Shown here: positions 45,797 through 46,407 of the stretch, in pieces
Layout of the letters: each line of letters starts with the position of its first letter
How positions within the stretch are numbered: the stretch's first letter is position 1
DNA from: Salinibacterium sp. TMP30
Lineage (GTDB): Bacteria > Actinomycetota > Actinomycetes > Actinomycetales > Microbacteriaceae
Assembly (NCBI RefSeq): GCF_038397785.1
Contig: NZ_CP151642.1
Coordinates: forward strand, 434,001-498,000
Direction: 5' to 3'
DNA length: 64,000 nt
Notes under the pieces: model-generated
Told to the model about the DNA's origin: nothing
What the model saw: the letters and a program-made list of their open reading frames with translations, nothing else
Database searches by the model: none
Program-made: the position numbers and the translations under genes

Positions 45797-46015
45797 TCAA
45801 TCCACGATCTCGATTTGAGTTTTGATAAAAGCCCGGTCAGATTCGGAGAGGTGTTGGCGAGAACGGGGAAGGCTGCATGCGAGCAGAGCTTCAATCTCTT
45901 TTAGCACCAAATTACTGATCTTGCCTTCGAGATCCTCTTGCAACTCGTGTTTCGCCGTGATGCTCAGCTCGGGCCACCATCGCTCAATAGGGGGAAGTTT
46001 GTCGTGTGTCTCCAT
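45797..46015 (-). CDS. Hypothetical short helical protein (72 aa)
   Basis: 72 residues from ATG 46015 with GGAG 8 bases upstream; the frame is open to 46087 but that stretch lacks a ribosome site. LPPIERWWPELSITAKHELQEDLEGKISNLVLKEIEAL, in pieces, predicts one or two amphipathic helices. I recognise no domain. It is convergent with the epimerase gene and divergent from the CxxC peptide gene. Confidence 0.6.
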   Translation of the reverse strand: METHDKLPPIERWWPELSITAKHELQEDLEGKISNLVLKEIEALLACSLPRSRQHLSESDRAFIKTQIEIVD

Positions 46016-46170
46016 GGGTTGTGTCTCCGTTCTCGGTAGAACTACTCTCTTCTCGATGACCCTAACGCGGCCCCAGGCGTTCACCAAACAATGTACCGAT
46101 GGGAATATCAGTGGCTGCGTGTACGTTTTAAAGAAAGTACGGCGACACGCCGAGACACTACATCTTGTGT

Positions 46171-46199
46171 AATGACATGGGTGTCATTCCCCGTATATA
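46171..46199 (+). promoter_or_regulatory. Promoter with palindromic operator for the CxxC peptide gene
   Basis: AATGACA (46171-46177) and TGTCATT (46182-46188) form a perfect 7-bp inverted repeat with a 4-base spacer. ATGACA (46172-46177) can serve as -35 and TATATA (46194-46199) as -10 with a 16-base spacer, so a protein bound at the repeat would cover the -35 box. A small hairpin, CCGAC/GTCGG (46209-46223), follows in the leader. Confidence 0.6.
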
Positions 46200-46254
46200 G
46201 TGAAATCTCCGACAAACCGTCGGTAAACTTCGAGAAGACTTTAAGGAGGATCGA

Positions 46255-46338
46255 ATGGATAACGACAACGACAACGTCGGTGGATACGCAATTCCCGTCG
46301 ACCCAATGGATCTTCTGCAGTGCGACAGCTGCCAGTAA
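46255..46338 (+). CDS. 27-residue acidic CxxC micropeptide
   Basis: A 27-codon ORF with a strong AAGGAGG eight bases before the ATG. The peptide is acidic at the N-terminus (MDNDNDN), then reads GGYAIPVDPMDLLQ and ends in CDSCQ. The C-terminal C-x-x-C could bind a metal, form a disulfide, or be a modification site of a ribosomally made peptide. It has its own promoter-operator and a hairpin terminator, so it is a complete transcription unit. No maturation or export gene is adjacent, and I recognise no named family. Too short for most gene callers. Confidence 0.65.
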   Translation: MDNDNDNVGGYAIPVDPMDLLQCDSCQ

Positions 46339-46370
46339 AAACTTACTGAGCTCGCACCTCAACAGATTCC

Positions 46371-46407
46371 TGAAGCCCCGGCCGACCTCACCGTCACCGG
46401 GGCTTCA
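46371..46407 (+). terminator. Terminator hairpin after the CxxC peptide
   Basis: TGAAGCCCCGG (46371-46381) and CCGGGGCTTCA (46397-46407) form a perfect 11-bp stem with a 15-base loop, 33 bp after the peptide stop. There is no strong T-run, as is usual in high-GC actinobacteria. Confidence 0.75.

Follow-up and report, generated by a model that had tools for sequence, protein, structure and literature searches.

What does a gene of only 27 codons contribute to a bacterial cell, and why does it have a promoter of its own? The question is raised by a locus in the window, the whole stretch of 64,000 nucleotides from Salinibacterium sp. TMP30 analysed here. The gene, recognised by ORF translation, homology and selection, encodes MDNDNDNVGGYAIPVDPMDLLQCDSCQ (46255..46338, plus strand, as are all signals described for it). 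Its Shine-Dalgarno sequence, AAGGAGG (46243..46249), and its CDSCQ ending are present as an earlier note on this DNA had described, and so are the promoter-like boxes and the palindrome over the -35 box (46171-46201). The promoter-like pair ATGACA-18-TATAGT (46172..46201) has 10/12 matches, one such pair being found against a shuffle mean of 0.3, and a perfect 7-bp inverted repeat, AATGACA-TGGG-TGTCATT (46171..46188), spans the -35 box. Two NrdR-box-like elements were also recognised: ACACTACATCTTGTGT (46155..46170), the core of which matches the published box regex, and the half site TATATAGTG (46194..46202), which spans the -10 box and was located by promoter alignment and pattern search. 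Both cysteines of the C-terminal pair are invariant in all 26 peptide-core rows.

Two further signals were confirmed only in part. The leader hairpin, CCGAC/GTCGG (46209..46223), does fold, but its stability is not above that of shuffled sequence (z +0.46); it was rejected as a regulator and is probably without function. The 11-bp stem behind the gene (46371..46407) is stable (-25.3 kcal/mol, z -6.2), but the T run of a terminator does not follow, and the stem was therefore missing from the terminator scan. Just upstream of the gene, a divergent ORF of 96 amino acids on the minus strand (45797-46087) has 51% identity over 79 residues in a same-genus locus (L098) and no match in locus L099.

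The peptide alone gave one match in Pfam at E 0.33, under the cut-off, and none in NCBIfam, and three of the peptides gave none in PHROGs. Its origin became apparent from other families. Besides G000 and G141, a search of the order matched 23 of 297 genomes; a search of the phylum matched 4 of 396, namely G000, G648 and two partial matches. The 23 order genomes and G648 provide 24 fused loci, the two partial matches lying outside this set, and in 24/24 NrdA closes with the motif, the reading going from KTTYYLH through to DPxxxxxCxxCQ before the stop codon. Judged by this homology, the peptide end YxVPVDPMDxLQCxSCQ is the CxxC arm that forms the C-terminal redox tail of class I RNR alpha chains, here in detached form, which corrects the earlier statement that the peptide has no known family. 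By parsimony, the fused form would be the older one, and the tail would have been detached in the family to which the window belongs. The suggestions of a metal-binding peptide or of a precursor of a modified peptide found no pointer, since the three downstream genes are HadA-like, HadB-like and MurB and the homologues form the fused C-terminus of NrdA.

When the own genome was searched with the window stretch, two further partial matches appeared, both over the peptide end, and the peptide as query found five places: a copy at the nrd genes, the window copy, 264731(-), 265253(+) and 290705(+). The nrd copy, MNRENSIDEYYVPSDPMDDLQCDSCQ, lies between nrdA and nrdB and overlaps the stop codon of nrdA, which is nrdA's own; NrdA itself ends in ..ARRGFGGFSKKEDS, without the cysteine pair. 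The window copy lies about 126 kb away from nrdA as an ORF with a promoter of its own and is thus not part of the NrdA chain. The copies at 264731 (minus), which is intact, and 265253 (plus), which appears decayed, lacking an evident start and also a stop codon behind CDSCQ, lie in a stretch of about 259-270 kb (L010 897-11706) with ORFs that by eye look integrase-like, ParA-like and methyltransferase-like. The fifth copy, at about 290.7 kb (L008 1375-1557), has a longer N-terminal part, up to 53 residues, and the end HEYIVPVDPADETRCDSCQ.

The genome encodes one class I/II RNR alpha chain (PF02867), and no class III RNR (PF13597) was found in it. NrdA aligns with solved RNRs through NCFV, NLCTEI and VCNLASIN, which are taken here to be the places of the catalytic cysteines, and therefore the usual active-site disulfide is expected. 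The best solved match of NrdB (L009 4120-5169) is PDB 1syy, with which it has in common a Phe at the position of the radical Tyr of other enzymes, as in class Ic. The RNR of this lineage thus appears to be class Ic-like.

The tail-less NrdA and the peptide occur together across the family. Among 150 family genomes searched with the NrdA end at E <= 0.001, 80 matched, 69 of them strongly (E <= 3.1e-33) and the other 11 no better than E 6.7e-5; the cut between strong and weak matches was placed after this gap had been seen. A profile of the 26 peptide cores matched 72 of the same 150 genomes, namely 69/69 of those with a strong NrdA match versus 3/81 of the others, although the genomes are related and therefore not independent trials. 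The three exceptions are G101 (85% complete), G113 (77% complete) and G141, where the peptide match is weak. Per genome (n=69), one copy of the peptide was found in 5, two in 42, three in 16, and four, five and six in 2 each. In 56 of the 60 genomes compared, out of the 69, a peptide follows the NrdA match within 600 bp; in the other four (G138, G053, G123 and G015) it lies elsewhere. In five control genomes of the family the one RNR alpha chain is of another type, with a fused CVSCML or CVSCAL end, and the peptide is absent save for a weak remnant in G141. There (L094), the fused class Ib-type tail is accompanied by a short stretch, SCPVDSMDELNCDSCQ, perhaps the remnant of a mobile copy.

The search of genome contigs confirmed 281 places, and of the 80 kept for analysis 68 are beside nrdAB, 2 beside HadA/HadB-MurB genes and 10 beside neither. 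All 68 loci with an nrdA end have an nrdA tail without cysteine, and NrdA in the lineage of the window stops after ..RRGFGG... Among 30 family loci, 29 nrdA tails likewise lack cysteine; in the exception (L015, genome G009), nrdA continues in a different frame that contains one cysteine, and the peptide beside it is intact. A frame that passes the usual nrdA end, with the peptide intact in another frame, is seen in both L112 and L015, and may be an assembly error or a real change.

The stand-alone copies appear to be under purifying selection. Over the last 20 codons of 35 stand-alone loci (595 pairs), pN was 0.067 and pS 0.477, a ratio of 0.14, and mean entropy was 0.19, 0.13 and 0.82 at the first, second and third codon positions. 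The ORF is thus conserved against synonymous change in its relatives, and translation of the peptide would be expected. Together with the conserved promoter and the homology to the RNR tail, this lends support to the earlier proposal of a real, regulated micropeptide, possibly redox-active. Within 110 bases downstream of the peptide, folding is stronger than in simple base shuffles (z < -2) in 31 of the 35 loci. The window copy belongs to a group that lies 5' of HadA-like, HadB-like and MurB genes; this synteny was found in 19/30 loci (L041-L070) and in 12/20 regions, which had been picked partly as stand-alone and are partly the same places as those loci.

Copies are also found on mobile elements. 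The search of viral contigs confirmed 254 places, of which 80 were retained; the flanks fetched for these (up to 5 kb) show no match to either NrdA or NrdB in 77 cases, and the open frame around the peptide is no longer than 200 codons in 74. One viral contig (L221, 5001-9171) carries the peptide, then NrdA without tail cysteines, then NrdB. Among plasmid records, 19/72,556 matched. Among phage records, 5/50,697 matched, weakly (E 0.2 to 3), and represent three phages, Clavibacter CN1A, Clavibacter CMP1 and Pontimonas phiPsal1. The ORF lacks annotation in CMP1 and phiPsal1, where it lies behind a gene annotated as holin (or hol); the CN1A ORF overlaps the last part of a gene for a metallophosphatase.

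The promoter elements connect the stand-alone gene with nrdA. From 44 loci and the window, 35 distinct promoter sequences in which TATATA[GC]T occurs no more than about 260 bases upstream of the peptide were aligned, and they have in common aCACtAcATnTaGtGgAATGACA...gTGt.ATTcc.gtTATATAGTg, in which the second element is conserved because the loci were chosen by it, which does not apply to the rest. The inner inverted repeat is kept in most of the 35 and absent from the nrdA promoter, where both outer elements are present, spaced one base closer than at the peptide. A box-pair pattern derived from these very two sites, the peptide and nrdA promoters, finds exactly them in the 2.69-Mb genome, with 0 sites for the reversed control. 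The published NrdR box regex (PMC12051234, in its available text) was scored with a pair of boxes 14-17 bp apart as the criterion for the NrdR regulon. Box 1 matches in 35/35 stand-alone promoters and the full pair in 14/35, both same-genus relatives among them; box 2 of the window is one base off the regex, and the nrdA pair matches. The 64-kb window contains one occurrence of the regex box pair. NrdR is encoded in the genome; the window copy is probably under its control, NrdR being expected to bind at these boxes. The two loci fetched for the three other own-genome copies showed no box pair, and up to 300 bases upstream of the 80 viral copies there were 2 matches to the regex pair and none to TATATAG.

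Overall, it appears that the peptide is the detached redox tail of NrdA, which supplies its dithiol in trans and of which a second copy has its own promoter; this reading is given a probability of about 0.88. The peptide may dock on the tail-less NrdA via its conserved YxVPVDPMD stretch, its dithiol would reduce the active-site disulfide after turnover by giving two electrons, and a thioredoxin-type redoxin would re-reduce the spent peptide. Reduction in trans is proposed by analogy with the class I tail, which reduces the active site (PMC9669993), with the redoxins that re-reduce this tail (PMC6187632) and with a split class II RNR in which the separate NrdJb does the work of the tail (PMC4520616), as far as the available parts of these papers go. 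One copy would be coupled to nrdA, and the window copy would be a second source, probably under NrdR. Two sources could let the cell vary the amount of peptide per enzyme, and phage copies would escape that control.

The position of the nrdA-linked copy raises another possibility, in which this copy serves as the working tail through frameshifting or readthrough and the stand-alone copies act as RNR regulators (competitors or decoys). The peptide is in frame relation 2 to nrdA in 60 of 68 loci, and therefore a frameshift-fused product is possible for the nrdA-linked copy; the stand-alone peptides also differ slightly, often ending in ..LLQCDSCQ, as against ..DLQCESCQ at nrdA. However, frame relations 0 and 1 occur as well (3 and 5 of the 68; 4 and 1 in a further set of 26), and the peptide starts share bases with the stop codon of nrdA, an arrangement that fits translational coupling. 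G015 (0.93 Mb) has one RNR alpha chain, tail-less with the end ..NRRGFAGFSKNKDV, no NrdD and a single peptide, which is stand-alone, and in G053 the one RNR alpha chain found is tail-less and the one peptide found is not adjacent. G138 makes no clean trans test because a second RNR alpha chain is present. A fused product with regulatory stand-alone copies is therefore unlikely.

It is even less probable that the peptide, although derived from an RNR tail, now serves another redox partner while a redoxin reduces NrdA directly. The synteny with HadA/HadB-like and MurB genes, which are unrelated to RNR, would fit this, and NrdJa alone keeps trace activity with DTT according to the available text of PMC4520616; yet the co-occurrence with tail-less NrdA in 69/69 genomes, the promoter elements common to nrdA and the peptide and the very existence of an nrdA-linked copy argue for RNR as the partner. 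A last reading, in which the end of nrdA was duplicated and the stand-alone ORF is what is left of it, without a function, can hardly be maintained: one of the five own-genome places, 265253(+), does look decayed, but the pN/pS ratio of 0.14, the conserved promoter, the retention of the peptide in a 0.93-Mb genome and the 254 confirmed viral places all speak against it.

The detached redox tail acting in trans thus remains the preferred reading. The redox tail has been described as belonging to the alpha chain of class I RNR, and here it appears, from sequence comparison, as a free micropeptide; re-reduction of RNR thereby becomes testable in trans. It is somewhat more likely than not that this lineage runs its only RNR on a diffusible, multi-copy peptide of 27 residues instead of a built-in swinging arm and that the phage copies, which lack the NrdR-like boxes of the host, are a minimal auxiliary gene that raises dNTP supply. 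A terminal CxxC was reported for 1737/2022 class I sequences in the available text of PMC9531940, and a detached tail may explain some of the class I sequences without one. A function can also be proposed for an ORF that at least two phage records leave without annotation, and phages may aid the dNTP synthesis of their hosts by means of a gene of some 25 codons.

No description of a split class I tail, or of a micropeptide between nrdA and nrdB, was found in the literature within reach, to which subscription journals mostly do not belong, and NrdJa/NrdJb was the only split RNR found outside viruses according to the available text of the 2015 paper (PMC4520616). What appears new is a split RNR of class I whose separate part is a micropeptide, dispersed and mobile. 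The tail of class I NrdA/NrdE has the same PxDPMxxLQCxSCQ end and is homologous, whereas here it is a separate 27-residue gene in several copies per genome, with its own promoter and with relatives on phages and plasmids. Split phage RNR genes, as far as the available text of PMC3653736 describes them, are likewise RNRs in pieces, but mostly through introns, inteins and homing endonucleases, whereas here only the redox tail is separate and has a start and a stop codon of its own. Thioredoxin, glutaredoxin and NrdH (PMC6187632, same restriction) are, like the peptide, small CxxC electron carriers for RNR, but they reduce the tail cysteines, whereas the peptide would be the counterpart of the tail itself and, judged by its length, could not form a thioredoxin fold. 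Of the precedents found, NrdJa/NrdJb of Pseudomonas aeruginosa comes nearest: there, in the portion of PMC4520616 available, a separate chain likewise provides C-terminal thiols for the catalytic chain; it is of class II, with an NrdJb of 229 residues and one operon, whereas the present system is of class I, with 27 residues and dispersed genes. A catalytic chain without tail cysteines and a separate thiol chain are found here too (68/68 loci; 69/69 genomes), and by analogy the peptide system would work like NrdJa/NrdJb without being a member of it.
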